Shown here piece by piece: positions 9,691 through 27,566 of a DNA stretch of 32,786 bases. The stretch comes from a virus. The notes below the pieces were generated by a model. The model was not told the origin of the DNA. It searched no databases and worked only from the letters and a program-made list of their open reading frames with translations. Numbering within the stretch: position 1 is the first letter of the stretch; each line of letters opens with the position of its first letter. The position numbers and the translations under genes were made by a program. The stretch is from the IMG/VR virus record IMGVR_UViG_3300012005_000032, positions 1 through 32,786 of that record; one strand, 5' to 3'.

Positions 9691-9837
9691 TTAAAATAAG
9701 TATACAAATGTATACATTATTAATTTAATACCAGCATCTGGATCAAAATGTCCACTAGCTGTATGTTGAATGACATCAAATTTTTCTTTAGCTTCGTTTA
9801 TAAATTGAGCAAAATTTTTAATGTGTTGTTTTTTCAT
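9691..9837 (-). CDS. Small protein with capsid-targeting-like N-terminus (48 aa)
   Basis: A 48-residue minus-strand frame starts M-K-K-Q-H-I-K-N-F-A-Q-F-I-N-E-A. This nearly duplicates the start of the 282-residue protein at 18616-19464 (M-K-T-Q-Q-I-K-N-F-D-Q-F-M-N-E-A) and belongs to the K-x-F-x-x-F-h-N-E set. After the leader only about 33 residues remain, ending in a hydrophobic stretch (L-I-M-Y-T-F-V-Y-L-F). It may therefore be a truncated member or a small cargo peptide. It ends one base from the synthetase stop (convergent). A long hairpin abuts its ATG. Confidence 0.5.
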   Translation of the reverse strand: MKKQHIKNFAQFINEAKEKFDVIQHTASGHFDPDAGIKLIMYTFVYLF

Positions 9838-9883
9838 GAGCTTATTTATTTTTATATATAAATTTATAAAAATAAATAAGCTC
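9838..9883 (-). terminator. 19-bp perfect stem-loop next to a start codon
   Basis: GAGCTTATTTATTTTTATA (9838-9856) is the exact inverse of 9865-9883, with an 8-base loop. On the minus strand it follows the stop of the 79-residue gene and ends directly at the ATG of the 48-residue gene. It may terminate the former, or control translation of the latter. On the plus strand it is followed by a T run, so it may also terminate gltX transcription. Confidence 0.55.
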
Positions 9884-9909
9884 CTTTTTATAATTTTTAA
9901 AAACTGTGA

Positions 9910-10149
9910 TTAACCAATTTTATCAGGCGCACCTTTTAATGAAGATATATAAATTGGATATTCTTCTTTAAATTTTAAATAATCTGTTAATGTTATACCA
10001 TCATCGGCTAATGATTTTATTGTAGCATTATCAAGATCTCCATTTATTCTCATTTGTTGAAGTTTTTTAACAAGTTTAGGATCAAGTTCATCATTATCAT
10101 TTTTTGAATTTGATTCATTAGCTGTTAGCCATTGTTTGAAATTTTTCAT
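9910..10149 (-). CDS. Small protein with a capsid-targeting-like N-terminus (79 aa)
   Basis: Starts M-K-N-F-K-Q-W-L-T-A-N-E-S, a variant of the shared leader with W for the second aromatic and candidate processing after N-E. The rest is acidic and helical (D-E-L-D-P-K-L-V-K-K-L-Q-Q-M, then I-K-S-L-A-D-D-G-I-T-L-T-D-Y) with no enzymatic motif. It has its own AATATATAGA box 25 bases upstream and a strong hairpin after the stop, so it forms a one-gene unit. Proposed to be packaged in the virion; what the mature peptide does is unknown. Confidence 0.6.
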   Translation of the reverse strand: MKNFKQWLTANESNSKNDNDELDPKLVKKLQQMRINGDLDNATIKSLADDGITLTDYLKFKEEYPIYISSLKGAPDKIG

Positions 10150-10174
10150 AACGTAAATGTATGTTTTTATCTGA

Positions 10175-10185
10175 TCTATATATTA
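10175..10185 (-). promoter_or_regulatory. TAATATATAGA box (putative phage promoter)
   Basis: TAATATATAGA on the minus strand, 25 bases upstream of the ATG at 10149. Same box as at other virion and leader-peptide genes. Confidence 0.5.
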
Positions 10186-10235
10186 AAAATAATAAACTTA
10201 TGGAGTGTAAATGTTTATAATTTGATAAATTTGTC

Positions 10236-10243
10236 TATATTTG
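10236..10243 (+). promoter_or_regulatory. Host-type -7 box TATATTTG
   Basis: TATATTTG fits the Bacteroidota -7 consensus TAnnTTTG and lies 4 bases before the ATG at 10248. Transcripts from it would be leaderless or nearly so. The -33 element is not convincing. Confidence 0.35.
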
Positions 10244-10247
10244 AAAC

Positions 10248-10808
10248 ATGACAAAAACTGATAAACAAATAGGAACCAGAACTAAAATAGACTTCTCCAA
10301 TCATGAATTAACTATAATCGATCATGGAGATACCAAAATATACCATTTGAAGAAACCAGATACCAATTATGACAATATCAAATATATCAATTCTGGAGGA
10401 ATTCTGGCTGTTACTGGAGACTATGGAAATTGGATTTTTTGTAGAGAGTTTCACCCAGATATCAATGACAAAGTTGATGATCATTACTGGGCATCAAAGC
10501 TGAAGAATTCATCATGTCAGGAGCCTTACGAGTTTGATTCAGAATCTACAATAAAAGAGCTCAAGAAAGCATTAAAAGAATACAAGTCTGAGAATGGAAA
10601 TGCTGCAAGTTTTGAGGTGATAGAATATTACCAGGATTGCATAGAAAAAGCCAATTATGGAGAATTTGATTATACAGCCTTTGCCTATAGAGAATATCCT
10701 TCGAACTTTGGTCCTGAAGATGTGATCATGAGGAAGGATATCAAATATTGGTTGAAGGCGGTATTTGATGGTTTTGATGTGATGCATGATAGATTAAAAA
10801 CAAAATAA
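10248..10808 (+). CDS. Conserved phage protein with G-D-Y-G-N-W-I-F-C-R-E-F-H-P motif
   Basis: 186 residues. A strand-rich N-terminus leads to I-L-A-V-T-G-D-Y-G-N-W-I-F-C-R-E-F-H-P near residues 52-70. I remember this signature from an uncharacterised protein family common in phages of Gram-negative hosts. It is followed by an acidic region with Y-W-A-S-K-L, a lysine-rich helix (E-L-K-K-A-L-K-E-Y-K) and a tyrosine-rich C-terminal part. This starts a divergent plus-strand run of small genes. No enzymatic role can be assigned. Confidence 0.75.
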   Translation: MTKTDKQIGTRTKIDFSNHELTIIDHGDTKIYHLKKPDTNYDNIKYINSGGILAVTGDYGNWIFCREFHPDINDKVDDHYWASKLKNSSCQEPYEFDSESTIKELKKALKEYKSENGNAASFEVIEYYQDCIEKANYGEFDYTAFAYREYPSNFGPEDVIMRKDIKYWLKAVFDGFDVMHDRLKTK

Positions 10809-10818
10809 AATTTAGAAC

Positions 10819-11019
10819 ATGACACCAGAAGAAAAAACAAACTACAATCGAATGCATGCAATGTTAGTCAAGATAGAGTCTGACTATCAAACTCCAGAAG
10901 AGATCAGAGAATCATATGAAGACATGGGATTAGATTTCGACGAAGCATTGGAAATGGCCTATGAAAACATCCAAAGCGAAGCATTGAACACTGTTAAAAA
11001 TATCAAAAGAATAAACTAA
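10819..11019 (+). CDS. Small acidic phage protein (66 aa)
   Basis: 66 residues starting at ATG, 10 bases after the previous stop. It is highly acidic and helical: Y-Q-T-P-E-E-I-R-E-S-Y-E-D-M-G is followed by D-F-D-E-A-L-E-M-A-Y-E-N-I-Q. The repeated E-A-L-E-M-A-Y-E-N-I type helix occurs in small proteins of other large phages as far as I recall. No function known. Part of a run with overlaps of only a few bases up to 12496. Confidence 0.6.
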   Translation: MTPEEKTNYNRMHAMLVKIESDYQTPEEIRESYEDMGLDFDEALEMAYENIQSEALNTVKNIKRIN

Positions 11020-11027
11020 AAAAAAAT

Positions 11028-11306
11028 ATGAAAACAAAATACACATTAGAAGAAATTTACGAAAGTATGTATAAACACAAGCTTCAGAACGAAACATTCG
11101 AAGATGGTTTGGCATCATTGGTAAAAATTAGCAAACCTGAAAAAGATAAAAGCCCTGTATCAAAAGATGCTGCTCCTATGATAGGATTAAATCCTTTCAA
11201 AGGCAATAAGACTAAAAAATCTGAGAAATCTCAAAGGCCTGATAGGTTCAATGAGGTGCTGAACCATAGAGTTTCCAAATATAACGAAAACAAACAAGGT
11301 GAATAA
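11028..11306 (+). CDS. Hypothetical basic protein (92 aa)
   Basis: 92 residues starting at ATG. The N-terminal 35 residues are helical (L-E-E-I-Y-E-S-M-Y-K-H-K). The rest is lysine-rich and probably disordered (K-G-N-K-T-K-K-S-E-K-S-Q-R). An N-terminal helix followed by a charged tail fits a small nucleic-acid or protein-binding factor, but no motif identifies it. Its last codons overlap the start of the next gene, so translation is likely coupled. Confidence 0.55.
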   Translation: MKTKYTLEEIYESMYKHKLQNETFEDGLASLVKISKPEKDKSPVSKDAAPMIGLNPFKGNKTKKSEKSQRPDRFNEVLNHRVSKYNENKQGE

Positions 11307-11637
11307 ACCCAAATGGCATATTTCTTTTAGACTATTGAAGAACAGTCAGTTCAGTTTCAAATTGAAGAGTTTGATCTGTAATGAACTTCTATGGAAGGAT
11401 AAATATAACTCTCCTAGAGTTGAGATCATTCCAAAATATCTGTTTAGTTGGTTGTGGTTTCAATTGGATATCATTCAAGGAAATGATGATGACTGGGAAT
11501 GGTATCTTTGGGTAGAAAAATACAGCAATGGCGATATCAACAAAGCAATAGAAACCTTTCCATGGATGAAAATGGTTGATGGAAAATATATTAAATATAA
11601 TCCGCATTTAACATATAACAAGAATAGAAATGATTAA
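11299..11637 (+). CDS. Hypothetical tryptophan-rich protein (112 aa), GTG start
   Basis: 112 residues beginning at GTG (11299) inside the G-G-T-G-A-A-T-A-A end of the previous gene, an 8-base overlap. The sequence is rich in tryptophan and basic residues (W-L-W-F-Q-L-D-I-I, D-D-W-E-W-Y-L-W-V-E-K-Y). The middle could be a compact helical domain. The next gene starts 8 bases before its stop. The chain of overlaps argues that these genes are translated as a unit. Not recognised. Confidence 0.6.
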   Translation: MNKPKWHISFRLLKNSQFSFKLKSLICNELLWKDKYNSPRVEIIPKYLFSWLWFQLDIIQGNDDDWEWYLWVEKYSNGDINKAIETFPWMKMVDGKYIKYNPHLTYNKNRND

Positions 11638-12496
11638 AAAAGGAGACATCATTTATACATTAGATATCGATCGACATCTTGTTGTTACGATTTCTAAAAT
11701 TTTTATCAAAGATCATGAAATTCGTGATAGTAAAGAATTCATATATTGGGATAATCTAGAAAATATTACTATCAGAGATTATGAACTTCCATTGAAAGAA
11801 GATGAAGATCGTAAATTGGCAGGCAACGTTATAAGTGGCGGTGGCTATATAGATGATTATTTATATGTGTTGCACAGTAGAGAATACGTAACAAAAGCTA
11901 TATTTAAAAAGAAAGCAGAATTAAGCTCTTTGAAGATAAAACAGGATATCAGAGATTCTAAATTCGTTTGTCCTCTGACTGGTAATAAACTGATCAAACA
12001 AAAATATCACAATATATTTATTCTTGGAGATTATGGACAATCGTATTCTGTTGAGAATTCAACAATAGTTTGGAAAACAATGGATAGAGTAAACCCTTAT
12101 GGTTTAATGTACACAAATTACAAAAACACTGATTACTATTTTCTATTTGATGAAAAAGAACTAACATGGAAACGATATCTAAAAATTGGAAATAGAGAAT
12201 TTTGCTATTATCCAGATAACATATTAGATTTAATTTCGATTTCATATAAGCATTTTAAATTTAGATTTAAAGAGTTTATAAATGATATCAAAAAATATTA
12301 TCCTAAAAAGAGTAATTTTACAACTTTAGGATTACAGCTCAATGCTGTAAAACCTATGTATAGTGCAATTAGCGGGTTTGATCTGGTTCCTGTTGTACCT
12401 ATGACGGCTCCTATTAGTCCGATATTTTATTTTGATGATATTGCATATGATAAAACTAAACCAATCAATAGAGAGATTTCAATCAAAGATCTTTAA
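11630..12496 (+). CDS. Hypothetical protein (288 aa)
   Basis: 288 residues. The first 30 look like an SH3-like strand set (K-K-G-D-I-I-Y-T-L-D, L-V-V-T-I-S-K-I). Later there is a C-P-L-T-G-N-K-L-I segment, an aromatic-rich middle (N-T-D-Y-Y-F-L-F-D-E) and a lysine-rich stretch near 220. The last 60 residues are proline/methionine-rich (P-V-V-P-M-T-A-P-I-S-P-I-F). The start overlaps the preceding gene. I do not recognise a family; a multi-domain virion or host-interaction protein is possible but unsupported. Confidence 0.6.
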   Translation: MIKKGDIIYTLDIDRHLVVTISKIFIKDHEIRDSKEFIYWDNLENITIRDYELPLKEDEDRKLAGNVISGGGYIDDYLYVLHSREYVTKAIFKKKAELSSLKIKQDIRDSKFVCPLTGNKLIKQKYHNIFILGDYGQSYSVENSTIVWKTMDRVNPYGLMYTNYKNTDYYFLFDEKELTWKRYLKIGNREFCYYPDNILDLISISYKHFKFRFKEFINDIKKYYPKKSNFTTLGLQLNAVKPMYSAISGFDLVPVVPMTAPISPIFYFDDIAYDKTKPINREISIKDL

Positions 12497-12503
12497 TTTT
12501 TAT

Positions 12504-12511
12504 TAAATTTG
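12504..12511 (+). promoter_or_regulatory. Host-type -7 box TAAATTTG
   Basis: TAAATTTG matches TAnnTTTG and lies 4 bases ahead of the ATG at 12516. There is no clear TTG box at the usual distance, so this is tentative. Confidence 0.3.
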
Positions 12512-12515
12512 TAGT

Positions 12516-12794
12516 ATGCATAAAAAATATTTTGATAAAGAAGATTTTATTGATGATTTCATCGAAGAATTTGAAAAGGATGTAAAGACCAATCCAATCT
12601 CTGATGAAAACAGAGCTTTGATTTTGAAATATTTTGATGAATACGGGACTATTAAATGGAACCAAGCTTGTAAGGCTCAGACTGAAAAATGCAGCGATAA
12701 AGTGTATGATCTTTTATCCACAGATTTCGATGCTGAAACTTGGCATGAAAAAATAAAATTAACCAAAAATGTAGAATACGATGAAGAATTTTAA
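12516..12794 (+). CDS. Hypothetical acidic protein (92 aa)
   Basis: 92 residues, acidic and helical. The N-terminus is D-K-E-D-F-I-D-D-F-I-E-E-F-E-K-D, followed by a Y-G-T-I-K-W-N-Q-A-C-K segment and an acidic end (V-E-Y-D-E-E-F). Strong negative charge is common among small phage proteins that bind host proteins or mimic DNA, but that is only a possibility here. The end overlaps the start of the next reading frame. Confidence 0.55.
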   Translation: MHKKYFDKEDFIDDFIEEFEKDVKTNPISDENRALILKYFDEYGTIKWNQACKAQTEKCSDKVYDLLSTDFDAETWHEKIKLTKNVEYDEEF

Positions 12795-13003
12795 AATTAT
12801 AATATTATTTTTATCTATAGCTCATGTTCTTATGTCGCAACGCGATGCTTATACAAAAACATGTAGTTTCAGTAGTTACTCCAAAAAGAGATACATTATA
12901 TTTATACGATGATCAAGTTGGACAATGTATTGCCGACTTTTGGTATAATCCTACAACAAAAGGTGAGAAACCTGTTATAGTGTTGACTAATAATAATCAC
13001 TAA
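12781..13003 (+). pseudogene. Small secreted protein gene split by a frameshift
   Basis: A frame from ATG 12781 starts with a typical signal peptide (M-K-N-F-K-I-I-I-L-F-L-S-I-A-H-V-L) and runs out of coding character after about residue 25. It stops at TGA near 12910. The frame one base further on then looks coding (H-V-V-S-V-V-T-P-K-R-D-T-L-Y-L-Y-D-D) and ends at TAA 13003. It has an open 59-codon stretch from an ATG at 12824. One inserted or deleted base near 12850 would join them into a secreted protein of about 73 residues. It may be a decayed gene, a sequence error, or two overlapping short genes. Confidence 0.4.
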
Positions 13004-13038
13004 AAATATATAAATATATTCCTAGCTTTGCAATTAAA

Positions 13039-13289
13039 AGAAATCATTCATGATTTCTAGAAACGTACTGGACCGATTATTGAGCCCACTATCATGTCAG
13101 ATTGCTCTTTCATGAATACATTTGTTACACAAATGATCTTTTACATTTGTTTTACGTATGAATTTGTAAATTTCACACAACCAATACCTCAATGAACATT
13201 TATCAATTAAAATATAGTTAAAGTGGCTTTTTATTTCCTACCAGACATAAATGTCGGTCCTATAAGTTGTCAATTGCAAGCAATTGACA
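13039..13289 (+). ncRNA. Hairpin-rich non-coding region, candidate structured RNA
   Basis: The 410 bases between 13004 and 13413 hold no credible gene but contain several perfect inverted repeats. These are AGAAATCA/TGATTTCT at 13039-13058, CATTTGT/ACAAATG at 13119-13135, and GACAT/ATGTC at 13244-13255. A 10-bp stem TGTCAATTGC/GCAATTGACA lies at 13268-13289. GGACCGA at 13070-13076 pairs with TCGGTCC at 13254-13260 and could close the inner hairpins into one domain. It could be a phage RNA, a regulatory leader for the gene at 13414, or a DNA site such as an operator. Strand is assigned only because both neighbours are on plus. Confidence 0.35.
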
Positions 13290-13413
13290 TAATTGATAGA
13301 GTATATATTAAATATAGTTGGTTTAGTTTAAATATTTTTATATAAATTAGTATAAATCTAGTTACTTAATATTATACAATTTCGATCAGAAAAAGGCTTT
13401 ATAAAAAATAACC

Positions 13414-13815
13414 ATGACAGTCTATATTACAAAAGGATCCAATAGCTATCGAGTTTTTGTATTTAAGAGAGGAAATGATTTCAATGGTCATAAACTGAAT
13501 GATGATGGTTCTATTATCTATGTTATAAATAAAGAAGGATTTATAGAGTCATTGGAACTAACTTTAGAAACTTTTTATGGTGGAGAATCAAATTCTGAAG
13601 CTTATAATTTAATGACAACAGTTTTTAATAATGGAGATGTTCTTCAAATAACATGCGAAATTGATAATGATGTAGTTTTCACTAAAAAGATTGAAAAGGT
13701 AATGAATAAAGATTTTTGTGAATGTACATTAAAATCTTGGAATTCTATCAAATCTAATTGGTTTCATCCTGATGCAGCAACAAAAAGATTAGAGGAACAT
13801 ATATCAAAACTTTAA
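13414..13815 (+). CDS. Hypothetical protein (133 aa)
   Basis: 133 residues starting at ATG after the hairpin-rich gap. The N-terminal 60 residues are strand-rich (V-Y-I-T-K-G-S-N-S-Y-R-V-F-V-F-K-R). The C-terminal part holds a C-E-C pair and helices (S-W-N-S-I-K-S-N-W, T-K-R-L-E-E-H-I). The untranslated leader may include the structured region just upstream, so expression could be regulated there. No known family seen. Confidence 0.6.
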   Translation: MTVYITKGSNSYRVFVFKRGNDFNGHKLNDDGSIIYVINKEGFIESLELTLETFYGGESNSEAYNLMTTVFNNGDVLQITCEIDNDVVFTKKIEKVMNKDFCECTLKSWNSIKSNWFHPDAATKRLEEHISKL

Positions 13816-13825
13816 ATAAAAACTA

Positions 13826-14179
13826 ATGAACCAAGAAATAAAAGAGCTTTGGATCAAAGCATTAAGATCTGGAAAATATAAACAGACGACTGGAAAGCTA
13901 AAAAGCATTGAATCAGCATATTGTTGCTTGGGTGTACTTTGTGACATTTATATTGAAAAAACTGGAATAGGAAAATGGAAAGAAAATACACACCATAACA
14001 GTTTTGATTTCGATGATAATAATTGTAATATAGAAGGACTTCTTCCAAAAAATGTTATGCTATGGGCAGAGTTAGATCGTAATGATCCAATATTAAAAAA
14101 TGGTAGATATATTTCACATATCAATGACAGAGGATCAACGTTCGAAGAAATATCAAATTTAATAGAAACAGATCTATAA
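13826..14179 (+). CDS. Conserved phage protein, C-C-L-G-V-L-C-D family
   Basis: 117 residues. The order of motifs matches an abundant family of short phage and prophage proteins as I remember it. E-L-W-I-K-A-L-R-S-G-K-Y-K-Q-T is followed by A-Y-C-C-L-G-V-L-C-D-I-Y near residues 31-42, L-L-P-K-N-V-M-L-W-A-E-L in the middle, and I-N-D-R-G-S-T-F-E-E-I-S at the end. The biochemical role of this family is not known to me. It follows the previous gene after 10 bases. Confidence 0.8.
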   Translation: MNQEIKELWIKALRSGKYKQTTGKLKSIESAYCCLGVLCDIYIEKTGIGKWKENTHHNSFDFDDNNCNIEGLLPKNVMLWAELDRNDPILKNGRYISHINDRGSTFEEISNLIETDL

Positions 14180-14206
14180 GAATAAAAAATATTACAAACA
14201 TATAGA

Positions 14207-14536
14207 ATGGGAAAACTGATAGTTCTGAATAGAAAAACCAAAGAATACGATTACTTTGTCAAGTATAAAAGAAATCGTAAAGAAGACATATATTCAGTAG
14301 AGTTGTTTCATTCTCATAATGGAGAATGGACCAATCCTGGATCTAAAATCATGACATTGAAAGAAGAAAATCTGATGTTAGATTTCAGATTTGAAGATAA
14401 AGTAGATCTTAAAAATACTCCATATCATACAAAGGATCATATAGAATTGGCTCTCTTGGCTCTTGATGCAATTTCTGATAATGATAAAGTGAAAAGAAAA
14501 TGTAAAAATAAAACTTTTAAACTTTTAAAATTTTAA
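14207..14536 (+). CDS. Hypothetical protein (109 aa)
   Basis: 109 residues starting at ATG. The N-terminal half is beta-rich (G-K-L-I-V-L-N-R-K-T, Y-S-V-E-L-F-H-S-H-N-G-E-W) and the rest is helical with a basic C-terminus (K-R-K-C-K-N-K-T-F-K-L-L-K). The arrangement resembles a small single-domain nucleic-acid or protein-binding factor. No identifiable motif. A CATATAGA stretch precedes the ATG, a weak version of the promoter-like box seen elsewhere. Confidence 0.55.
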   Translation: MGKLIVLNRKTKEYDYFVKYKRNRKEDIYSVELFHSHNGEWTNPGSKIMTLKEENLMLDFRFEDKVDLKNTPYHTKDHIELALLALDAISDNDKVKRKCKNKTFKLLKF

Positions 14537-14538
14537 AT

Positions 14539-14697
14539 ATGCATCAAACTATTAATTCTTACATAAAACAATTAAAAATAAGATTATTGAACAATCAAGA
14601 TCTTGGTTCATATTTCAGGAAGAAATTTCCAAATAATGATATAGCAGTTAAATTTCCAAATGATTTTGATTTAGGCAAATATCTACGTAACTCATAA
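14539..14697 (+). CDS. Small hypothetical protein (52 aa)
   Basis: 52 codons from ATG, 2 bases after the previous stop, so probably coupled to it. It is helical at the N-terminus (Y-I-K-Q-L-K-I-R-L-L-N-N) and then carries F-R-K-K-F-P-N-N-D-I-A-V. The A/T-biased third positions match the neighbours. A rho-independent terminator follows 26 bases after the stop, consistent with this being the last gene of the run. Function unknown. Confidence 0.5.
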   Translation: MHQTINSYIKQLKIRLLNNQDLGSYFRKKFPNNDIAVKFPNDFDLGKYLRNS

Positions 14698-14723
14698 ACA
14701 ACCTTAAACAATTAACAAAACTT

Positions 14724-14750
14724 AAAGCCCTTGATAATCAGGTGCTTTTT
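14724..14750 (+). terminator. Rho-independent terminator
   Basis: AAAGCCCTTGAT pairs with ATCAGGTGCTTT with one mismatch, followed by a T run. It ends the plus-strand run that reaches 14697. Confidence 0.75.
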
Positions 14751-14781
14751 ATTTTTCAGCAATCTGCTATTTGAAACTAGA

Positions 14782-14790
14782 AATATATAG
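14782..14790 (+). promoter_or_regulatory. AATATATAG box (putative phage promoter)
   Basis: AATATATAG lies 3 bases before the ATG of the W-x-N-G repeat gene and directly downstream of a terminator, as expected for a new transcription unit. Confidence 0.5.
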
Positions 14791-14793
14791 CTT

Positions 14794-15135
14794 ATGCAAC
14801 GATTTAAACACCTCATATACAAAGGAAAGAAGATAGAACTTGAACATCTTATCACAGAAATTCTGGTATCGACTGGTCATAACTGGTTACTGGATACAGA
14901 ATTCGAAGAAGCTGAAATAGAGATCAAGGACAAGATGTTCACATGGATAACAGGCAAGTGGTATAATGGTGTTTGGATGAATGGAGTTTGGCTGAACGGA
15001 GAATGGTTCGGAGGAGAATGGTTACAAGGAAGGTGGAAGAATGGCATTTGGCATGATGGGATATGGCACGATGGAGTATTCGAGGATGGAGAATTCAGGT
15101 TGGGTGAATTCATAAAAGGCATCAAACAAAATTAA
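14794..15135 (+). CDS. W-x-N-G pentapeptide-type repeat protein
   Basis: 113 residues. The first 50 are helical and acidic. Residues 54-108 are about ten tandem five-residue units of the form x-G-x-W-x (N-G-V-W-M, N-G-V-W-L, N-G-E-W-F, G-G-E-W-L, then W/F units ending D-G-E-F). Such repeats occur in structural or accessory proteins of large T4-like phages and probably form a regular beta stack with tryptophans along one face. Likely role: binding surface or stabilising element; not an enzyme. Long opposite-strand frames here are a by-product of the repeats. Confidence 0.75.
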   Translation: MQRFKHLIYKGKKIELEHLITEILVSTGHNWLLDTEFEEAEIEIKDKMFTWITGKWYNGVWMNGVWLNGEWFGGEWLQGRWKNGIWHDGIWHDGVFEDGEFRLGEFIKGIKQN

Positions 15136-15144
15136 AATTTAGTC

Positions 15145-15678
15145 ATGAAGGCGCGAAAAAATATTGTTAAAACAGATAGTAAAACTGAAAGTAAGAAGAT
15201 CACCAATAAACGCTCCAAACAGATAGATAATATACCTGGTAGTCAGGTTATTTACAGTTCAGATTTTTTGGATATTGCAGTCTATGATAAAAAATTATGT
15301 TTTCAGATCACGATTCATGAACTGAAAGAGCATATACAGACATTCGATGTGTTCGAAGCCGTTGCTGCTATCATATCGACTAGTAAGAAAATAGAAGATA
15401 TATGGTCTATCCCTTTACAACTTAAAGATTTTGAAGATATCAGACTAGGTAAAGCTTTATATTGGATGAGTGGAGGCAACAATGAATGGAACAGCTGTAT
15501 ATTTTACACAAAGCCATGGAACGAATGCGTTGATGTATTGGAAGATCATTTCACTTTAAAAATAACAAAAAACTTTAAAAAGTGTAGAACTTTGGAAGAT
15601 GTTAAAGATCTTTTATTGAAGAAGTGTTCTCTGCCACTGATATATGATTTTATGTTGAGCAAAGATCTTGTTAAATAG
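15145..15678 (+). CDS. Hypothetical protein (177 aa) with a basic N-terminus
   Basis: 177 residues beginning at ATG, 9 bases after the repeat gene. The first 28 residues are strongly basic and disordered (K-T-E-S-K-K-I-T-N-K-R-S-K). A folded part follows with W-S-I-P-L-Q-L-K-D-F, a W-M-S-G-G-N-N-E-W-N-S loop and a helical C-terminus with cysteines (F-K-K-C-R, L-L-K-K-C-S). The basic tail suggests contact with nucleic acid or membrane. No homologue recognised. Confidence 0.55.
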   Translation: MKARKNIVKTDSKTESKKITNKRSKQIDNIPGSQVIYSSDFLDIAVYDKKLCFQITIHELKEHIQTFDVFEAVAAIISTSKKIEDIWSIPLQLKDFEDIRLGKALYWMSGGNNEWNSCIFYTKPWNECVDVLEDHFTLKITKNFKKCRTLEDVKDLLLKKCSLPLIYDFMLSKDLVK

Positions 15679-15688
15679 AATATATAGA
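15679..15688 (+). promoter_or_regulatory. AATATATAGA box (putative phage promoter)
   Basis: AATATATAGA directly follows the previous stop and lies 2 bases ahead of the ATG at 15691, so any transcript from it would be leaderless. The box is the same as at the minus-strand late genes. Confidence 0.5.
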
Positions 15689-15690
15689 AT

Positions 15691-16278
15691 ATGAAAGATT
15701 TCAAGACATTCGTAAACGAAAACCTGTTGGTTCCACGTAACCTGGAAGGCCGCAAGGAGAAATTAAAACAAATGAACATCAAGTTGCTTTCTCAGGAAGT
15801 GGTAGATGGAGATTTAATTTTGGATGAATCTTTCATGGACATAGATGCAAAGTTCGTGAAGCTCAAGAAAGTAAATGATTGTGTTATTTTAACAGGAGGA
15901 TTATGGACAGAAATACCAGAATGGTTGAAGAATGTTGAAGTGTTAGGTTACTTTAGTTGTGCAGGAAACAAATTAACTACAATGAAAAATTGTCCTGCTG
16001 TTATACACGGAAATATAAATTGCGCTGACAATAAACTAATAACTCTGGAAGGAAGTCCTGAAATCATAAACGGTAATTTTCACTGTTCTAGCAATATGCT
16101 TACATCGTTAAAAGGTTGTCCAAAAATCATAAATGGAAGTTTTTCATGTTCATATAACAAATTAACATCACTTGAAGGATGTCCTGAAACTATAAACGGT
16201 AATTTATACTGTATCACCAAGCCAACATTAGAACTTCCAGATTATGTTAAACTGAAAGGCGAATTCGTAAACAAATAA
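15691..16278 (+). CDS. Leucine-rich-like repeat protein with a capsid-targeting-like leader
   Basis: 195 residues. The N-terminus M-K-D-F-K-T-F-V-N-E-N fits the shared leader peptide, with candidate cleavage after E10. From about residue 95 there are four repeats of about 20 residues in the pattern C-x-x-N-K-L-T-S-L-E-G-C-P-x-x-I-N-G-N, the phage leucine-rich-like repeat. This region should form a solenoid binding surface. The pairing of leader and repeat suggests a protein packaged in the head and then acting on a partner in the host, or a structural head component. Leader and repeat are seen directly; packaging is inferred. Confidence 0.75.
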   Translation: MKDFKTFVNENLLVPRNLEGRKEKLKQMNIKLLSQEVVDGDLILDESFMDIDAKFVKLKKVNDCVILTGGLWTEIPEWLKNVEVLGYFSCAGNKLTTMKNCPAVIHGNINCADNKLITLEGSPEIINGNFHCSSNMLTSLKGCPKIINGSFSCSYNKLTSLEGCPETINGNLYCITKPTLELPDYVKLKGEFVNK

Positions 16279-16284
16279 TCTGTC

Positions 16285-16294
16285 AATATATAGA
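16285..16294 (+). promoter_or_regulatory. AATATATAGA box (putative phage promoter)
   Basis: AATATATAGA 3 bases before the ATG at 16298, between two short-spaced genes. Confidence 0.45.
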
Positions 16295-16297
16295 TCA

Positions 16298-17086: not shown

Positions 17087-17108
17087 AAAATAAATCATTA
17101 AAAATTAA

Positions 17109-17138
17109 AAAGCCCTTGATATTTCTATCAAGGGCTTT
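17109..17138. terminator. Bidirectional rho-independent terminator
   Basis: AAAGCCCTTGATA (17109-17121) pairs perfectly with TATCAAGGGCTTT (17126-17138), flanked by A and T runs. It separates the convergent plus-strand genes from the minus-strand late region. Confidence 0.9.
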
Positions 17139-17301
17139 TGGTAAATTTTAAAAATAATCTACAGCCGATAACAAGCGTTTAATGATTTACCAGAACATCA
17201 TCACTTAAACTTAAACTGCAAATGTTTTCCATAAACATACAACATTTGTGATTATAAATTTAATAATTATTTTTTAAATATTTATAGGATTCTCTCTATT
17301 T

Positions 17302-18511: not shown

Positions 18512-18564
18512 TTGATATAAACCTATGTGATTTGGATTATATATGATTCGATTGCTGGTTCGCT

Positions 18565-18591
18565 AAAAAAGCTCCAATTTGGAGCTTTTTT
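18565..18591 (-). terminator. Rho-independent terminator after a leader-peptide gene
   Basis: AAAAAAGCTCCAA and TTGGAGCTTTTTT form a perfect stem with A/T tracts, 25 bases after the stop at 18616 on the minus strand. Confidence 0.9.
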
Positions 18592-18615
18592 ATCTGTTTT
18601 TCTTTAAGTTTATTT

Positions 18616-19464
18616 TTAATTACCAGCGACTTGACCGTATACGTCAGCAAATCTATCATAATCAAAACCATAATGTTTAATAATATCTAGAATTTCATCA
18701 GGAAATTCCATGTCTTCATCTCTGTCACTTTCTGGTAAACCAGTAACTGCAGTGTAATTATCCCAACAAAAATGAACGACATGTCTTACTGATGAGTTAT
18801 CACCTAATTGTTTAACAATTTCATCTAATGTTAATATAGGTTTAACAACACGTACCTTTTTAAATTTTTGTTTGATATCTTCTAAAGAAATTCCAGATTT
18901 CTTTAACGAATCTTTATTTATTTCAATTCTACCATTGAACTCATTAGGCTCGGAAAAAATGATTTCATTTTCTTTTAAATAATCTCTAACAGCATTTCTT
19001 TCTGATGTGAGACTTAGATTATCTATGCTGATAATAACTATTCTAGAATCTTTAGATTCGTTTATCTGCATTTGCTTTGCTTCATTTGTTTGAATGTCGA
19101 TAAAATTCATCAATTGTGTCAAACTATCAAAAGTACCTTGGTCTTTTGAATATTTTGATTCTTCAGGGTCTCCTATTTCAATAGTAATAATAGGTGCATC
19201 TGACATATTACCAAACATAGATTTTTTAACTGTAAAATATATTTTATGTCCTACACCACCAACATAAGCCCAATTTGCATCCGTTTTAAATTGGCCATTT
19301 CCATTAATGGTAAGTTTCTTTTTTAATATTCCGGTTAAAAGCTTACCGTCATTTTCTTCTATCCAATCATGTTTGATCTTTGCTTTTTGAAATTCTTTAT
19401 CAGATTTTTCAATTTTAGCTTCGTTCATAAATTGATCGAAATTTTTAATTTGCTGTGTTTTCAT
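18616..19464 (-). CDS. Candidate packaged protein with capsid-targeting-like leader (282 aa)
   Basis: Begins M-K-T-Q-Q-I-K-N-F-D-Q-F-M-N-E-A-K, the longest form of the shared leader, almost identical to the 48-residue gene at 9691-9837. Two further N-E sites (Q-T-N-E-A-K and I-N-E-S-K) fall near residues 128-137. Processing could therefore release two domains: residues 16-128 (strand-rich, with W-A-Y-V-G-G-V-G-H-K-I-Y-F) and 138-282 (helical, with H-F-C-W-D-N-Y). No enzymatic motif is evident. It is a one-gene unit with its own TATATA box and terminator, placed between the tube and baseplate genes. Packaging is inferred from the leader. Confidence 0.7.
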   Translation of the reverse strand: MKTQQIKNFDQFMNEAKIEKSDKEFQKAKIKHDWIEENDGKLLTGILKKKLTINGNGQFKTDANWAYVGGVGHKIYFTVKKSMFGNMSDAPIITIEIGDPEESKYSKDQGTFDSLTQLMNFIDIQTNEAKQMQINESKDSRIVIISIDNLSLTSERNAVRDYLKENEIIFSEPNEFNGRIEINKDSLKKSGISLEDIKQKFKKVRVVKPILTLDEIVKQLGDNSSVRHVVHFCWDNYTAVTGLPESDRDEDMEFPDEILDIIKHYGFDYDRFADVYGQVAGN

Positions 19465-19482
19465 ATTGTTTTTTTTTGTTAA

Positions 19483-19493
19483 TGTATATATTA
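19483..19493 (-). promoter_or_regulatory. TAATATATACA box (putative phage promoter)
   Basis: TAATATATACA on the minus strand, 18 bases upstream of the ATG at 19464. Confidence 0.5.
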
Positions 19494-19571
19494 ATAATTT
19501 ATTTGATTACATTGTAAAATTACTAAAATTATTTATGGCTGGACAAATTATTTTCAAATTGTTAATAACTA

Positions 19572-20135: not shown

Positions 20136-20158
20136 TTTTATTGAATTGTTTTTCTAAC

Positions 20159-20169
20159 TGTATATATTA
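20159..20169 (-). promoter_or_regulatory. TAATATATACA box (putative phage promoter)
   Basis: TAATATATACA 23 bases upstream of the tail tube ATG on the minus strand. Confidence 0.5.
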
Positions 20170-20190
20170 TGATTTTTAATCCCTCTCTGG

Positions 20191-21444: not shown

Positions 21445-21447
21445 GAA

Positions 21448-21456
21448 CTATATATT
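21448..21456 (-). promoter_or_regulatory. AATATATAG box (putative phage promoter)
   Basis: AATATATAG on the minus strand, 3 bases before the ATG of the 417-residue structural gene, just past a terminator. Confidence 0.45.
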
Positions 21457-21463
21457 CAAAATA

Positions 21464-21492
21464 AAAAAGGCTCTATTTTGTAGAGCCTTTTT
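21464..21492 (-). terminator. Rho-independent terminator
   Basis: AAAAAGGCTCTA and TAGAGCCTTTTT form a perfect 12-bp stem with a TTTTG loop. It ends the two-gene leader-peptide unit at 21541-22569. Confidence 0.9.
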
Positions 21493-21540
21493 CCGTAGAA
21501 ACAGTAGCGAATTGTTTCAAACGGTCCTAATGGAAATCGT

Positions 21541-21819
21541 TTAAATATTTTTTAAAATTTCTATAGCTTCTTTAGAAATAGCTTCACTAAAATCTTTAGG
21601 TCTGATACTGTAATGTTGTACTAATTTTTGTATAGCGTTTCTTATTTCTGATGCCACATTTGAATTATAATGTTCATCTTTATTATCAAGATCCTCTATA
21701 TTATCAAACAAACTATCATCACCGTATAGATTGTACAATTCTTTCAAAATGTCGAACTTGTAGGGCCTTTGTTCATTTTCTAATTCATCTAAAAGCTTTT
21801 TTAATTTTTTCAGCTTTTT
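21541..21819 (-). pseudogene. 3' part of a leader-peptide gene, out of frame with its 5' part
   Basis: A 92-codon frame (K-K-L-K-K-L-L-D-E-L-E-N-E-Q-R-P-Y ... E-A-I-E-I-L-K-N-I) overlaps the end of the 107-residue gene at 21785. It has no ATG; the only usual alternative start is a TTG at 21747. The overlap contains two A6 runs (21797-21802 and 21805-21810, minus strand). Removing one A would fuse the upstream protein directly to this one as E-K-I-K-K-L-L-D-E-L. So this is most simply the C-terminal half of one protein of about 195 residues. Alternatives are real translation from TTG, a +1 frameshift, or a homopolymer sequencing error. Confidence 0.5.
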
Positions 21820-22108
21820 CTACAGAGTCTGGTATCGACCATGTACATTCATTCAATTTTGATTCATAGTGTGATAAAACATCTTTCAATGCTTTTTTAA
21901 GTTCTGCCTGAGATTCTTTATCTGCATGATCTTCATCGTTGTTTTGTAAATATTCCAAAATAGAAGCATCATTATTGATATATTCTACACCATATTTTAC
22001 TAAAAAAGCCAAAACATGAACATCAAGTTGTTTCTTTGTAAATATATTTTTATCAGATTTCTCATTTAAGAACTGTTCGAATAATTTGATGTGTTTCATG
22101 TGTGCCAT
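21785..22108 (-). CDS. Candidate packaged protein with capsid-targeting-like leader, possibly frameshifted
   Basis: 107 residues beginning M-A-H-M-K-H-I-K-L-F-E-Q-F-L-N-E-K. The second methionine may be the true start, which would place the leader at the N-terminus as in the other members. The body is helical and acidic (V-H-V-L-A-F-L-V-K-Y-G-V-E-Y-I, H-A-D-K-E-S-Q-A-E-L-K-K-A). The frame stops at TGA within a run of A codons where another open frame takes over. It starts 8 bases after the stop of another leader-bearing gene, so both share the promoter box at 22592. Packaging is inferred. Confidence 0.6.
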   Translation of the reverse strand: MAHMKHIKLFEQFLNEKSDKNIFTKKQLDVHVLAFLVKYGVEYINNDASILEYLQNNDEDHADKESQAELKKALKDVLSHYESKLNECTWSIPDSVEKAEKIKKAFR

Positions 22109-22116
22109 ATTAGTTT

Positions 22117-22569
22117 TTAAGATAATTGTGCTCCCAAAAGTTCGGCAAGTTCTTCACCTTCGATCTTTTCAGTTTTTACAATCTTGATATAGAAATCGTA
22201 AGTACATGCAAATAGATTGATTTCACCAGCTTCAAATTCTTTATAAAGATCAGATTTAGCATCAACTTCATTTCCATTTTCATCTTCTAATGTGGAACAC
22301 ATTATTCTATTATCTAATACAGACCATTTGTTATAGTCAGCAGAAAGATCGGCAGTTTTTGCAAGTTCATCAATACTGTAGAACATTTTCCCTTTGATAT
22401 CATATGAAAGATCCATATGCGTAGACTTTCCTATTTCTCCATTTTCAAAATTATCTTCATTACATATCTTTTCTACTGAAGCTACGATGAATTTAATATC
22501 TACTGGCAACTTTTTGAATTTCTTTTCTGAATTGTTTTCGTTTAAGAAATCGCTATATTTTTTGATCAT
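22117..22569 (-). CDS. Candidate packaged protein with capsid-targeting-like leader (150 aa)
   Basis: Starts M-I-K-K-Y-S-D-F-L-N-E-N-N-S-E-K-K. Y-x-x-F-L-N-E fits the shared leader, with candidate cleavage after E11. The rest (about 138 residues) is acidic with a strand/helix mix (I-K-F-I-V-A-S-V-E-K-I-C, K-M-F-Y-S-I-D-E-L) and ends in a helix (G-E-E-L-A-E-L-L-G). No known fold is apparent. First gene of a two-gene unit with its own TAATATATAGA box, between the sheath and the 417-residue structural gene. Confidence 0.7.
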   Translation of the reverse strand: MIKKYSDFLNENNSEKKFKKLPVDIKFIVASVEKICNEDNFENGEIGKSTHMDLSYDIKGKMFYSIDELAKTADLSADYNKWSVLDNRIMCSTLEDENGNEVDAKSDLYKEFEAGEINLFACTYDFYIKIVKTEKIEGEELAELLGAQLS

Positions 22570-22591
22570 GGTTTTATATCGTTTTTATTGA

Positions 22592-22602
22592 TCTATATAT
22601 TA
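22592..22602 (-). promoter_or_regulatory. TAATATATAGA box (putative phage promoter)
   Basis: TAATATATAGA on the minus strand, 22 bases upstream of the ATG at 22569 and just downstream of the sheath terminator. Confidence 0.5.
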
Positions 22603-22622
22603 AAGAAATACTGACAAAATTA

Positions 22623-22657
22623 AAAAACCCTAACAAAAATAAATTGTTAGGGTTTTT
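22623..22657 (-). terminator. Rho-independent terminator after the sheath gene
   Basis: AAAAACCCTAACAA (22623-22636) pairs perfectly with TTGTTAGGGTTTTT (22644-22657). It lies 22 bases after the sheath stop. Confidence 0.9.
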
Positions 22658-22678
22658 ATTAAAAAATTTAGTATAAAA

Positions 22679-25600
22679 TTAAGCTTCTGCGAAACCTGTA
22701 GATAATAATCCACCAGTCTTGAGAACATTAATTCTGTTTAAGATAGATTGTAAAGCCTTGATTGGTTCTACATACGTATCTAATACACCTAATTGGTTAT
22801 CGATCAATGTAGATGTGTTGTTTGAATCATCACAAACATTCTTGAAGCCGTATAAACCTTTTCTGTCTACGAAACGTTGACATATTGCATCAGCACGAAG
22901 CTTGATCTCAGCACGAACTTCTGATGTGTTGAATTTCCATTGGAACACTCTTAACATTTCTGATAATTCAGTCTCTAGTTCGATCAACACTTCTCTTACA
23001 TGTATGTAAGATAATGCAGATTTAACAGTCTGCTGAGCAGTGTATTCAGTCTCAATTCTGAAACGTCCTTTAGAATCTTTGATGATAGGATTACCGCCTA
23101 TAGAACCTAAAGAAACTATATCGTCGTTTTCGAAATCATGTTCAATATTTGTGATAGATTCAATTCTACCATCTGTTATACCAGCACAAACAGTCCAAGG
23201 TCTTAAACCTGCAACCTTGCTGACAAACTTACGCATGTAAGTCGTTGCAACGAACATTGCTGGTGGAACACTGATAGGACGTCCTGAGTCATTGATTGTA
23301 ACATAAGGGCAGAAGTAACCGACAGTAGATTGGCCATTTCCTTTACCGAATGAATAAAGGAATGCAGGATTCGAAGTAGGATTCGCTCCTTGAGCTATGT
23401 AGTCAACTACCAAGTTACCTTCAGGATCTGTAAAAGATGGTGAAGAAGATTCTTTGAACGCTTTCATAGAAGGCATGCTCAAGAATCCAAATACACTTAC
23501 TCTTTCTCCACATATATCAACTAATTGCTGTTTTGAATCTTCTTGTAAACCTAAACCGAATGAATCTACCATATATCTCCAGTATAACTTATTCTTGTTG
23601 ACCAAAGATTTAGCTAATGGTGTTCCTTTTGCTATGATATCCAAGATCTCATTCTGTCTAGTTTCAGTACCATCAGGCATACTTGCAGCTCTGACTTTGA
23701 AACCACCCAATGTTATAGCTTTGTATGTCAAAGCATAATCTTCCATATTAGTATATCGAGTTGTTTGGTAATCGGTACCTCCGAATAATGTTAAACTGAT
23801 CTGAGAATCACAAGTCAATTCAACCAATGTTGGATCAGCAGCATAGATTCTCTTGTTGATAATGCGAGTTAAATTCTTTGGTTGTTCACCAGTATTCAAT
23901 GCTGAAATATCAACATAAGCAGCTAAATAATCTCCAACTTTAACTTCAGAGTAACGAGCAGCATTAACCAAAACCTTATTAGGAGTCTGAACATAACCAG
24001 TAGGCTGTTCGATTTCTAAAGTCTCTTTGTAGTTGTTGATATCAGAATATATCTTGATACCATTGTTAAAAGTTGAAGTGTTTGATAATGTAATCTCTGT
24101 CAAAAATGCAGCATCACTAAAGTTTACATTCAATACATCGTTAGCTAAGAAGAATTCTAAATAGATTTTTCTGTTAGCATTGAAGATATCGATAGTTCCT
24201 AAATTAGCAATAGTTTCAGCAACAGTATTTTCGTTCACCTGGAATGCCGTTTGATTAGCATTGGTGATTCCGATAGTAGATGGTGCGATAACGTTAACAA
24301 TTGTAAAAGTTATATTATTGTATATAGAACCATTAACCAAGAATTTATCACCTGTTGAACCAAATCCAGAAAGTGTCATTGCAGAATAATCTGTTGTGTT
24401 CATAACAACATAATCGTTACCTGCAACATCTAAGAATTTGATAGGATCTGCAGTAGTAGATGTAGCAATAGCTAATTTCTCATAGAAGTAATCAGAAGTT
24501 CCAATCTTACCATTTACGTAATCTTGATACATGCTTGAGTATTTAGCAACAACTCCTGTAGTTCCAGTAGCTACAGTATTTTTTGTAACCATTGCATAAT
24601 TAGAACCAGCGCCAGAGCCGGTTATAAATTCATTATCAACATTGTATAATGTAAATATTCTACCAGGAGCCACAAATGCAGTTCTGATATCAACAGTTGT
24701 ATCAGCCAAAGAAACAGTGATTGTCTTATCAGCAGTAGTATCAACTATGACAGTTGCACCAACTAATGAAGTTTTAGCTCCAGATCCTGTAATAAAAACA
24801 GCTTTGTCCTTGTTTGGACCATCTAATATAGCAATTAATCGGTTGAATTCTTTAACTCTACGATATGCTTCGTAGTTATTTGTAGGTATACTTCCAGAAG
24901 TACCATTGAATATAAATTCTATATCATAGATATTTGTAGAAACTTGAGCTGCTAAATCAGTAGCTGATAAATATACATATCCAGCACTATTTACTGTTAC
25001 GTAAGTGAAAGTTGGAGCAATATTTAAATTTCCTGTAGCAGCTTTCTCTAAAAGAACATAGGCTAATACTATATCAGTTGCATTCACGGCTGGATTAGCA
25101 GCAGTAGGAGAAACTCCAGTTGTGACAGTACCCTCTTTAACTTGAATTCCTGTAGAGTTTAAATAAATAGTATCAACACGTCTAGCTAATAAACCAGGTC
25201 CTGGTGTTGGCAAAGATGTATGTGTGATAGTTCCTGTAACAGGAGCATTATATCTAACTCCGGCTATGTTATAGAATGCAGAACCTCCATTTGTATAGGT
25301 CGTTGTTGCAATGTTTGTAGCAACTAACGTTGCACTGATTGTAAAATTACTAACATATTCATCGAAATAGTCATTAGCTCTAGAACTTATAATAGTTCCG
25401 TTAGCAATAACATTACCTGCTGCATTTAAGTCTTTATTGGTATAAGATATTGCTTCAGATATAGTTTCTTTATATGATAAGAAATTGATAGTTGTTGCAT
25501 CAGTTCCAACTAACGTGTTACCGATCAAATCTACTGCACTGTTTGGAAAATCAGTCTCTATCAAATCGTAGTTGTATGCACAGTATAAACCTGTACGATC

Positions 25601-26437
25601 TGTATCAATGTTGATCATATTCTCTATGAACATGTCTGCTCCACTAGAATTTCTAAAGTAAGGAATCAATGAACAATCATAATCTGCTAACAATGTCACA
25701 GTCTGATCGTTGATAAAGTTTTGAACTTGATCTTTTCTGATACCAGAAGTATTGAAGTATTTTGAATACTGAGCATCTACTGCTAATTGTGCATAATTAG
25801 ACCAATCTCCAGCTACCACTACAACTCTCACTAAATAATCAGTGATCAAATCTGTAGGACGTAGAAATGCAGGAACTTCATCTGCAGGAACTCCAGCATA
25901 CCAGTTCTGAACAGTCGTATCGAAACCTTTTATCTGACTCTTGAATGCAAATACAGAAATCTTGCGATCTGCAAAATTTGTAAAATGTAACAGAGAACTG
26001 TAAGTTGCAAAGTTCATGAATGAATCAGTGCTTCGTTTCCAGAATCCAGCAGTATCAAAAAATCTTCTGTAAGATTGAGATCTTTTTATATCGTTTGCTA
26101 ATACAGCATTCGTGGAAATATTCTGATACTCCATTGTATCCAATGTATCATCTGCTGCTAGCAAGTTGATAGCATAAACAGGTCCAGATTGTAACATCTT
26201 TAAACACGTTAAGTGGAACCATGATTCTTTTTTCTCTAAATTTCTATCTCTAGGTCCAAAGATCTGAGTTAAATCAGAAGATCTTTTTAATAGAACGTTT
26301 CTGTTGAAAGGTCCTTTTTTGGAAAAACCGGGTACCAAATTGATAATACCTTCAGTGACGATTTGTTCTAACACTGAATTATCGATCTCTTCGATGTATA
26401 TATCCGGTCTTTGATAATTTGCGACGTTGATGCTCAT
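22679..26437 (-). CDS. Tail sheath protein, T4 gp18-like, greatly enlarged
   Basis: 1252 residues, about twice T4 gp18 (659). The N-terminus has the sheath signature Y-Q-R-P-D-I-Y-I-E-E-I-D, then I-N-L-V-P-G-F-S-K-K-G-P-F-N and I-F-G-P-R. The C-terminal 250 residues (Y-I-H-V-R-E-V-L-I-E-L-E, F-N-T-S-E-V-R-A-E-I-K-L-R) match the conserved sheath core that contacts the tube. The middle, about 310-850, is rich in T, A, V, N and G with short strands, typical of outward-facing beta domains. It forms the contractile outer tail. Opposite-strand frames inside it are shadows. It is a single-gene unit between two terminators, with an AATATATAATA stretch about 30 bases before its ATG. Confidence 0.93.
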   Translation of the reverse strand: MSINVANYQRPDIYIEEIDNSVLEQIVTEGIINLVPGFSKKGPFNRNVLLKRSSDLTQIFGPRDRNLEKKESWFHLTCLKMLQSGPVYAINLLAADDTLDTMEYQNISTNAVLANDIKRSQSYRRFFDTAGFWKRSTDSFMNFATYSSLLHFTNFADRKISVFAFKSQIKGFDTTVQNWYAGVPADEVPAFLRPTDLITDYLVRVVVVAGDWSNYAQLAVDAQYSKYFNTSGIRKDQVQNFINDQTVTLLADYDCSLIPYFRNSSGADMFIENMINIDTDRTGLYCAYNYDLIETDFPNSAVDLIGNTLVGTDATTINFLSYKETISEAISYTNKDLNAAGNVIANGTIISSRANDYFDEYVSNFTISATLVATNIATTTYTNGGSAFYNIAGVRYNAPVTGTITHTSLPTPGPGLLARRVDTIYLNSTGIQVKEGTVTTGVSPTAANPAVNATDIVLAYVLLEKAATGNLNIAPTFTYVTVNSAGYVYLSATDLAAQVSTNIYDIEFIFNGTSGSIPTNNYEAYRRVKEFNRLIAILDGPNKDKAVFITGSGAKTSLVGATVIVDTTADKTITVSLADTTVDIRTAFVAPGRIFTLYNVDNEFITGSGAGSNYAMVTKNTVATGTTGVVAKYSSMYQDYVNGKIGTSDYFYEKLAIATSTTADPIKFLDVAGNDYVVMNTTDYSAMTLSGFGSTGDKFLVNGSIYNNITFTIVNVIAPSTIGITNANQTAFQVNENTVAETIANLGTIDIFNANRKIYLEFFLANDVLNVNFSDAAFLTEITLSNTSTFNNGIKIYSDINNYKETLEIEQPTGYVQTPNKVLVNAARYSEVKVGDYLAAYVDISALNTGEQPKNLTRIINKRIYAADPTLVELTCDSQISLTLFGGTDYQTTRYTNMEDYALTYKAITLGGFKVRAASMPDGTETRQNEILDIIAKGTPLAKSLVNKNKLYWRYMVDSFGLGLQEDSKQQLVDICGERVSVFGFLSMPSMKAFKESSSPSFTDPEGNLVVDYIAQGANPTSNPAFLYSFGKGNGQSTVGYFCPYVTINDSGRPISVPPAMFVATTYMRKFVSKVAGLRPWTVCAGITDGRIESITNIEHDFENDDIVSLGSIGGNPIIKDSKGRFRIETEYTAQQTVKSALSYIHVREVLIELETELSEMLRVFQWKFNTSEVRAEIKLRADAICQRFVDRKGLYGFKNVCDDSNNTSTLIDNQLGVLDTYVEPIKALQSILNRINVLKTGGLLSTGFAEA

Positions 26438-26486
26438 CTACGTATGTTTTATTTTTATTGTATGTATTATATATTGTTCTTTGAAA

Positions 26487-26520
26487 ATGAAAAAAGCTCC
26501 AAATCAGGAGCTTTTTTCAT
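26487..26520 (-). terminator. Rho-independent terminator
   Basis: ATGAAAAAAGCTCC (26487-26500) pairs perfectly with GGAGCTTTTTTCAT (26507-26520). It follows the stop at 26538 on the minus strand. Confidence 0.9.
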
Positions 26521-26537
26521 TTAAATATTTTATGAAT

Positions 26538-27530
26538 TTATTTAACTTTTAAAACATTCATTATATCATTAGAATATTTATTAACCCCTTCAACATTTGC
26601 CATATTACCTGCATAGTTTTTAGAAGTCCAGAATATATGTGCTATCTTAGCAATCTTTTTTAAGATATCCTTTTGTTTATCCTTAAGTGCAATTGCTTCT
26701 TTTTCAGAAGTATAGTGTGCAAAAATTGCACTTTCATCATACACATTTCCTTTTTCAATTCTGTCTTCAAGGGTATCTAATAAATTGTTAGTTATATCAA
26801 CATATTCAGTTTTTAAACTAGCAACTTTTTTCAATAGTTCTTCTTTATGAGATTCTAAAAGATTTTGAATTCTGCTTTTAAACTTATCATTTTCTGAATT
26901 ATCAGAAATATCTTTATAACGAGTATCAATTTTCGATCTAACTTCAGGATCTGTTGTTATTCCATAGATTTTATCAGAATATCCAGCAGCAGATTTACGT
27001 GTAAATTTTTCAGCTCTTCTTCCTCTGTTAACACTATTTATGTTAGTATCATATCCCCATGCGAAAGGTTTATCATTTTTGTCTACGAAAACATAAAATA
27101 AATCTGAATAAGCTTTCTTTGCAATGTTCTCTTTTGGAATTTCTATTACTTCAGAATTGGCAGTGATGCCAAAAGCTTTAGAAAAGTAATTTTTATCTCC
27201 AGAACTAAAATCTTTTAAAATTGCTGGATATGCTTCGTTTACGGCTTCTGTGTTTTATTCGTTTAAATATCCTTCTTCTGTTAACACCTGTTTTAATTTA
27301 GCAAATTTCTTGTTTGATATCCCTTGTAAAAATTCATCAATATCATCAGGTGGATCCATTGCAAAAGTTGGAAATCCTATTTTGGTCCATATTTCATCAT
27401 CTGGTTCTAATGGATCAAAATCCATATCATCACCTTCTATCATCGTTGTTAGAGTTTGAGAAATATCAAATATATCTTCTTCATTAGAAGAATTATCTTC
27501 ATTTAAAAATTGATTAAAATTTTTGATCAT
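26538..27530 (-). pseudogene. Leader-peptide protein gene interrupted by an in-frame TAA at a candidate protease site
   Basis: The gene starts M-I-K-N-F-N-Q-F-L-N-E-D-N (shared leader) and runs 91 residues to Y-L-N-E followed by TAA at 27255-27257. The same frame then stays open for 238 codons to 26538, beginning N-T-E-A-V-N-E-A-Y-P-A-I-L-K. For 140 codons after the stop there is no ATG, GTG or TTG, so the second part cannot start on its own at its N-terminus. The downstream part is clearly coding: F-A-W-G-Y-D-T, G-R-R-A-E-K-F and a long coiled helix near the end. Both sides of the stop have N-E sites like the leader cleavage site. Possibilities: nonsense mutation, readthrough of a polyprotein, or sequencing error. 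Confidence 0.65.
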
Positions 27531-27560: not shown

Positions 27561-27566
27561 ATAAAA

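Follow-up and report, generated by a model that had tools for sequence, protein, structure and literature searches.

Why should genes of a single virus whose products are otherwise unrelated begin with nearly the same short peptide? This question is raised by IMGVR_UViG_3300012005_000032, a stand-alone virus record of 32,786 bases that was analysed over its whole length (the window) and is a fragment of the genome of a very large bacteriophage. T4-type late genes occupy its minus strand, where the terminase is spread over three ORFs and a tail sheath of 1,252 aa and a tube-like protein are also encoded; its other genes lie mainly on the plus strand. The nearest named relatives, identified via the tail sheath, are five uncultured huge phages of 462-735 kb: W01 (LR745206, 635 kb), W02 (LR756502, 642 kb), W03 (LR756504, 636 kb), W04 (LR756501, 735 kb) and W05 (LR756500, 462 kb). 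An IMG/VR contig, L053, is a close relative, with a sheath protein 93% identical to that of the window. The terminase region (27567-31568, minus strand) consists of an N-terminal part with an intein-like end, a separate ORF of 398 aa that looks like a free-standing homing endonuclease, and a third ORF that combines an intein-like C-terminal part with the remaining terminase; in L053 the terminase is an uninterrupted protein of 665 aa. On the plus strand, a 271-aa protein (1721-2536) resembles, by eye, the C-terminal half of an NAD-dependent DNA ligase (zinc finger, HhH, BRCT) without the catalytic half, and the protein encoded at 14794-15135 contains W-x-x-G-x-W repeat units, MORN-like by eye. 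In W01-W03, TTTG-N19-TAnnTTTG (Bacteroidota-type promoters) occurred above control counts, an excess which suggests that their hosts may be Bacteroidota.

The seven leaders listed in a preliminary description of this DNA were all found in place. The shared K-x-[F/Y]-x-x-F-h-N-E pattern proposed there held strictly for six of these genes, the seventh (10149) being a degenerate match. The strict motif, K.[FYW]..[FYW]h[NSTD]E, indeed matched six N-termini among 50 non-overlapping ORFs of the window, as compared with a mean and a maximum of zero in residue shuffles (first 15 residues, 50 ORFs, 200 rounds) and none of 540 interior 15-aa windows of the same ORFs. Synonymous codons differ from leader to leader, and conservation thus operates at the protein level. 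Aromatic residues occupy the positions equivalent to T4 residues 4 and 7 in all seven leaders, with W in that at 10149, and a cleavage-type end (I, L, V or M at P3, E at P1) is present in six of the seven, 10149 being out of register.

The leaders head ORFs of various sizes (a slash marks the putative cleavage site). On the minus strand, a 48-aa ORF (9691-9837), which may be a truncated remnant, begins with MKKQHIKNFAQFINE/A (9837-9793); directly upstream of it, a perfect 19-bp hairpin (9838-9883, minus strand) has a folding energy of -21 kcal/mol. The 79-aa ORF at 9910-10149 (minus) carries the degenerate leader MKNFKQWLTANE/S, in which (KNFKQWLTANES) K-x-F-x-x-W is retained and E is displaced from the register. 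The only plus-strand member, of 195 aa (15691-16278), starts with MKDFKTFVNE/N and continues into leucine-rich-type repeats. On the minus strand again, a 282-aa protein (18616-19464; MKTQQIKNFDQFMNE/A) had no relatives in the phage collection or in IMG/VR, and AlphaFold2, run without relatives, gave no reliable model of it (pLDDT 44.5). The 107-aa protein at 21785-22108 (minus; MAHMKHIKLFEQFLNE/K) has a homologue in L053 (10740-10795) in which a stop codon falls within the leader (MKYIKLFK-stop-FLNEK). The adjacent 150-aa protein (22117-22569, minus; MIKKYSDFLNE/N) had no relatives of its body in the phage collection; its relative in L053 begins with MIQKFNDFLNE/N, with an F/Y interchange and a dN/dS of 0.145. 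A 91-aa protein (27255-27530, minus; MIKNFNQFLNE/D) contains a second LNE just before its stop. The parts downstream of the leaders had been described as unrelated, in line with the lack of any common family among the six bodies scanned (all but that of 9837).

The proposed likeness to the T4 capsid-targeting peptide was borne out by identical spacing. When the 15691 leader is laid on that of T4 IPIII (MKTYQEFIAE/A), in exact register, K2, the aromatics at 4 and 7, the aliphatic residue at 8 and E10 coincide. Suppressor analysis of T4 IPIII has assigned targeting mainly to residues 4 and 7 and processing to residues 8 and 10, and leaders of T4 internal proteins are cleaved after L/I-x-E (PMC9026906). 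The pattern is specific in T4 itself, where K.[FYW]..[FYW]h.E, scanned against all ORF starts of at least 30 aa, matched only ipII, ipIII and gene 61.1. The latter (NC_000866, 19130-18966) encodes 54 aa annotated as hypothetical, and its start, MKTFKEFIKED, is of the same leader type. The window phage thus resembles T4, with its IPI, IPII, IPIII and Alt propeptide, in having a short N-terminal K-x-aromatic-x-x-aromatic-h-x-E leader, and T4 internal proteins in the cleavage-type h-x-E end, the unrelated bodies and the exchangeable cassettes. It differs from T4 in that the leader is often shifted by 1-6 residues and that the bodies are not related to T4 internal proteins: homology to the bodies of IPI-IPIII, which would define that family, was not found, five bodies (that of 9837 left out) having no T4 internal protein homology and the 10149 protein giving a weak match (E=0.024) to PHROG 2667, 'internal head protein'. 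As a marker in the huge relatives, PHROG 2667 was uninformative.

The set had also been called modular, and comparison of the window with L053 revealed an exchange of this very kind. Beside the terminase of L053, the leader MIKNFNSFLNE leads into a protein of 249 aa; the window has this leader joined to another segment, of 80 codons to the second LNE and stop, a body absent from L053. The L053-type body is present in the window as an orphaned open frame (26538-27254, minus strand), in the same frame but without a leader or an ATG, and the window has TAA where L053 has CAA. The leader is kept while the body differs, with the junction exactly at F-L-N-E, through a change that may have run in either direction. 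The frame of the L053-type body is open, and its dN/dS between the two phages is 0.25 (0.09 for the sheath).

Leaders of this type were numerous in the huge relatives, in agreement with the earlier guess that the set would be large genome-wide. In its DNA form, the motif occurred at least 43 times in the five relatives, against 6 for a reversed control. In the three relatives whose genomes were covered completely, the strict motif was present at the N-terminus of 12, 4 and 7 proteins, as compared with 0.07-0.14 for shuffled sequences; the value of 12, out of 1,028 N-termini, belongs to the 735-kb phage W04, whose shuffles gave 0.14. A de novo search of the N-termini for three-residue patterns recovered the same core, with K.F..F, I..F..F, F.NE and Y..F..E among its highest-ranking results. 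The leaders differ in dialect from phage to phage: MIKxFxxFhNE in W04, MKYLKxF.. in W01 and MKYIKxYxxFINE in W05. Loose counts, by a profile fitted to each genome (posterior >0.5), gave 229, 195 and 103 matches in W04, W01 and W05, whose shuffles gave about 48, 31 and 22, and hence an estimated excess of roughly 180, 165 and 80 genes, at a false-positive rate estimated at 16-22%. The largest relatives thus seem to tag between dozens and well over a hundred of their proteins in this way, and this multitude of leader genes per genome, each phage with its own dialect, is unlike T4. Alignment of 67 tagged W04 proteins yielded the consensus MIKxFxxFxNE and little else. Most tagged W04 proteins had no family, and the rest include PPK2, dephospho-CoA kinase, methyltransferase, aldolase and radical-SAM proteins; in W01, a tRNA nucleotidyltransferase carries the leader ahead of its conserved GGSVRD motif. 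A second motif, DPYGEE-x-W, soon follows the leader in many tagged proteins of W04 (for example, those of the genes at 338419, 475399 and 475851). When an ATG-anchored leader pattern was applied to 16 IMG/VR records in each of which one leader had been recognised beforehand, all 16 gave hits, with a total of 42 sites; its reversed control gave none. The pattern was absent from the T4-superfamily phages Lak-A1, PTm1, phiM12 and Atu_ph07, and the leader is thus widespread, not universal.

Within the 32.8-kb window, no gene for a prohead protease, a capsid protein or a scaffold was detected, and since this is a fragment, these genes are taken to lie outside it. The preliminary description had proposed a search for the protease, and a Peptidase_S77 (gp21-type) protein was detected in all five huge relatives, with best E-values per genome of 2e-12 to 1e-4 and one match that passed the curated cut-off; a gp23-type capsid protein was likewise found in all five. 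These capsid proteins share a conserved h-x-E/N near residue 45 (FHQINE/N, FHSINE/N, YHELYE/N, MHQMNE/N and YHQIHE/N), which, from its position relative to that of T4 gp23 (SFLTE/AEIGGD), may be the maturation site. Downstream of an aromatic-x-x-aromatic pair in N-termini, E was enriched exactly at +3, with a frequency of 0.32 against 0.08 in W04 and of 0.54 against 0.09 in W05. The P3 residue of these sites in the relatives is mostly I, L or V, as in the T4 protease rule.

The leader genes also share a putative regulatory signal. All but one of the seven are preceded, at a distance of 10-33 bases, by a TATATA box, the exception being 22108, which directly follows 22569. On the minus strand, the promoter-like box TAATATATAG stands upstream of the 27530 gene (27552-27561), of the 22569/22108 pair (22593-22602) and of the 10149 gene (10176-10185); on the plus strand, AATATATAG (15679-15687) precedes the 15691 gene. 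In the window, the box is also found ahead of the terminase, sheath, tube and 330-aa genes, and most plus-strand genes of the left half have none upstream. Among genes with free upstream DNA, it precedes 55 of 58 leader genes in W04 (95%), against 151 of 349 others (43%), and 56 of 62 in W01 (90%), against 170 of 356 others (48%). The association is weaker in W05. In W04 and W01 the capsid and protease genes, too, are preceded by it, and the W04 sheath gene has no such box upstream. The Bacteroidota-type TAnnTTTG box is rare before tagged W01 genes (1/62, against 74/356 for the others). The TATATA box is presumably a late promoter.

Proteins with such a leader have been detected in virions of the T4-like cyanophage S-CREM2, whose published virion proteome comprises 52 of 219 gene products (PMC10665884). 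All three proteins matching K.[FYW]..[FYW]h.E, a SAM hydrolase, an APH-like kinase and a cytidylyltransferase, are among them (p=0.013), as are five of the seven matching a relaxed motif (p=0.009); these are small counts, and the relaxed pattern was picked after inspection. In gp12, a Cas9-like virion protein, LRFASFMAE/A occurs slightly further in. The accessible part of the proteome paper does not mention the leader. The cytidylyltransferase family carries the leader in S-CREM2, S-SZBM1 and Syn9, and also in S-SCSM2R judging from a partly visible start; the phage 121Q cytidylyltransferase has none and starts at its domain. NMNAT-like proteins have been reported in S-SZBM1 and S-SCSM1 virions, and 14 virion proteins only are listed for S-CREM1. 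The S-CREM2 virion enzymes bear the same N-terminal leader as the window proteins; the cyanophages differ in having few leader proteins per genome. Another parallel is offered by the ejection or inner-body proteins of phiKZ, 201phi2-1 and SPN3US, which are numerous, are packaged in the head and are processed after glutamate by a protease related to gp21. Their propeptides are mostly much longer than those of T4, several exceeding 100 residues in SPN3US (PMC5694885), and the accessible portions of their descriptions mention no short leader shared throughout the set.

Other explanations of the leader were weighed against this evidence. The composition of an A+T-rich, K/F/N/E-rich genome favours the leader residues, but residue shuffles, interior windows and reversed-pattern controls yielded almost none, and the shuffles refute chance, which retains a negligible probability. 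That the proteins form one diverged paralogous family, best conserved at the N-terminus, would fit the body motif that many tagged W01 proteins appear to share; it is very improbable given that the window bodies have no shared families and that the 67 tagged W04 proteins, unrelated enzyme folds included, align well only at the leader. Hardly more probable is a conserved nucleic-acid element, such as a translation start context or a recombination hot spot, with the peptide incidental. The leader and the promoter box often occur together and body exchange takes place at the leader, as such an element would have it, yet the varying synonymous codons, the F/Y interchange in L053, the variable distance between start codon and core and the peptide dialect of each phage all speak against it.

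The leader might otherwise serve as a tag that docks or sorts proteins to a different phage structure, be it the scaffold, the tail or an intracellular compartment, without being cut or delivered with the DNA. This alternative is unlikely, if the most serious of the four. The relatives carry the leader on very many genes, including enzymes able to act in the infected cell, as would be expected of such a tag. It is opposed by the glutamate at +3 with I, L or V at P3, which follows the T4 protease rule, by the presence of tagged proteins in S-CREM2 virions, and by the fact that the same motif picks out two proven head-packaged proteins in T4.

We therefore consider it probable that the leaders are modular capsid-targeting propeptides of the T4 kind. 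Head targeting, as first proposed, is supported by the register, the cleavage rule, the protease in the relatives and the shared promoter, and further by cassette exchange, the specificity of the motif in T4 and cyanophage mass spectrometry. From a mechanistic point of view, the tag would be a 10-16 residue N-terminal leader (10-19 under the T4-type criterion) whose K-x-aromatic-x-x-aromatic core would bind the assembling prohead core. The gp21-type prohead protease would then cut after the E of the following h-x-E site, and the mature body would remain inside the head and be delivered with the DNA, unrelated bodies being joined to the tag and exchanged at the cleavage-site junction. The function of the tag has been shown by others in T4, whose internal proteins are injected and counteract restriction (PMC12373910), and the presence of tagged proteins in virions has been shown by others in S-CREM2. 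Packaging, cleavage and injection in the window phage, as well as the roles of the bodies, are presumed. On the other hand, tRNA nucleotidyltransferase and PPK2 are tagged relatives that resemble normal intracellular enzymes, and 80-180 different tagged packaged proteins would be at or beyond measured virion totals, which amount to 86 proteins in SPN3US, 89 in 201phi2-1 and 131 in Atu_ph07 in the accessible parts of the reports.

The kind of system is known from T4; its scale and its enzyme cargo appear to be new, beyond the published descriptions consulted. We tentatively propose, at somewhat less than even probability, that huge phages load about 10% or more of their genes' products into the head via a short leader that is exchangeable between proteins and recognised by each phage's own scaffold and protease, the whole delivered set being predictable from N-termini alone, in phage-specific dialects. 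If the leader works as in T4, N-terminal sequence can single out, among hundreds of huge-phage genes of unknown role, those that act on the host at the very start of infection, and tRNA nucleotidyltransferase, among other enzymes, may enter the cell ready-made.
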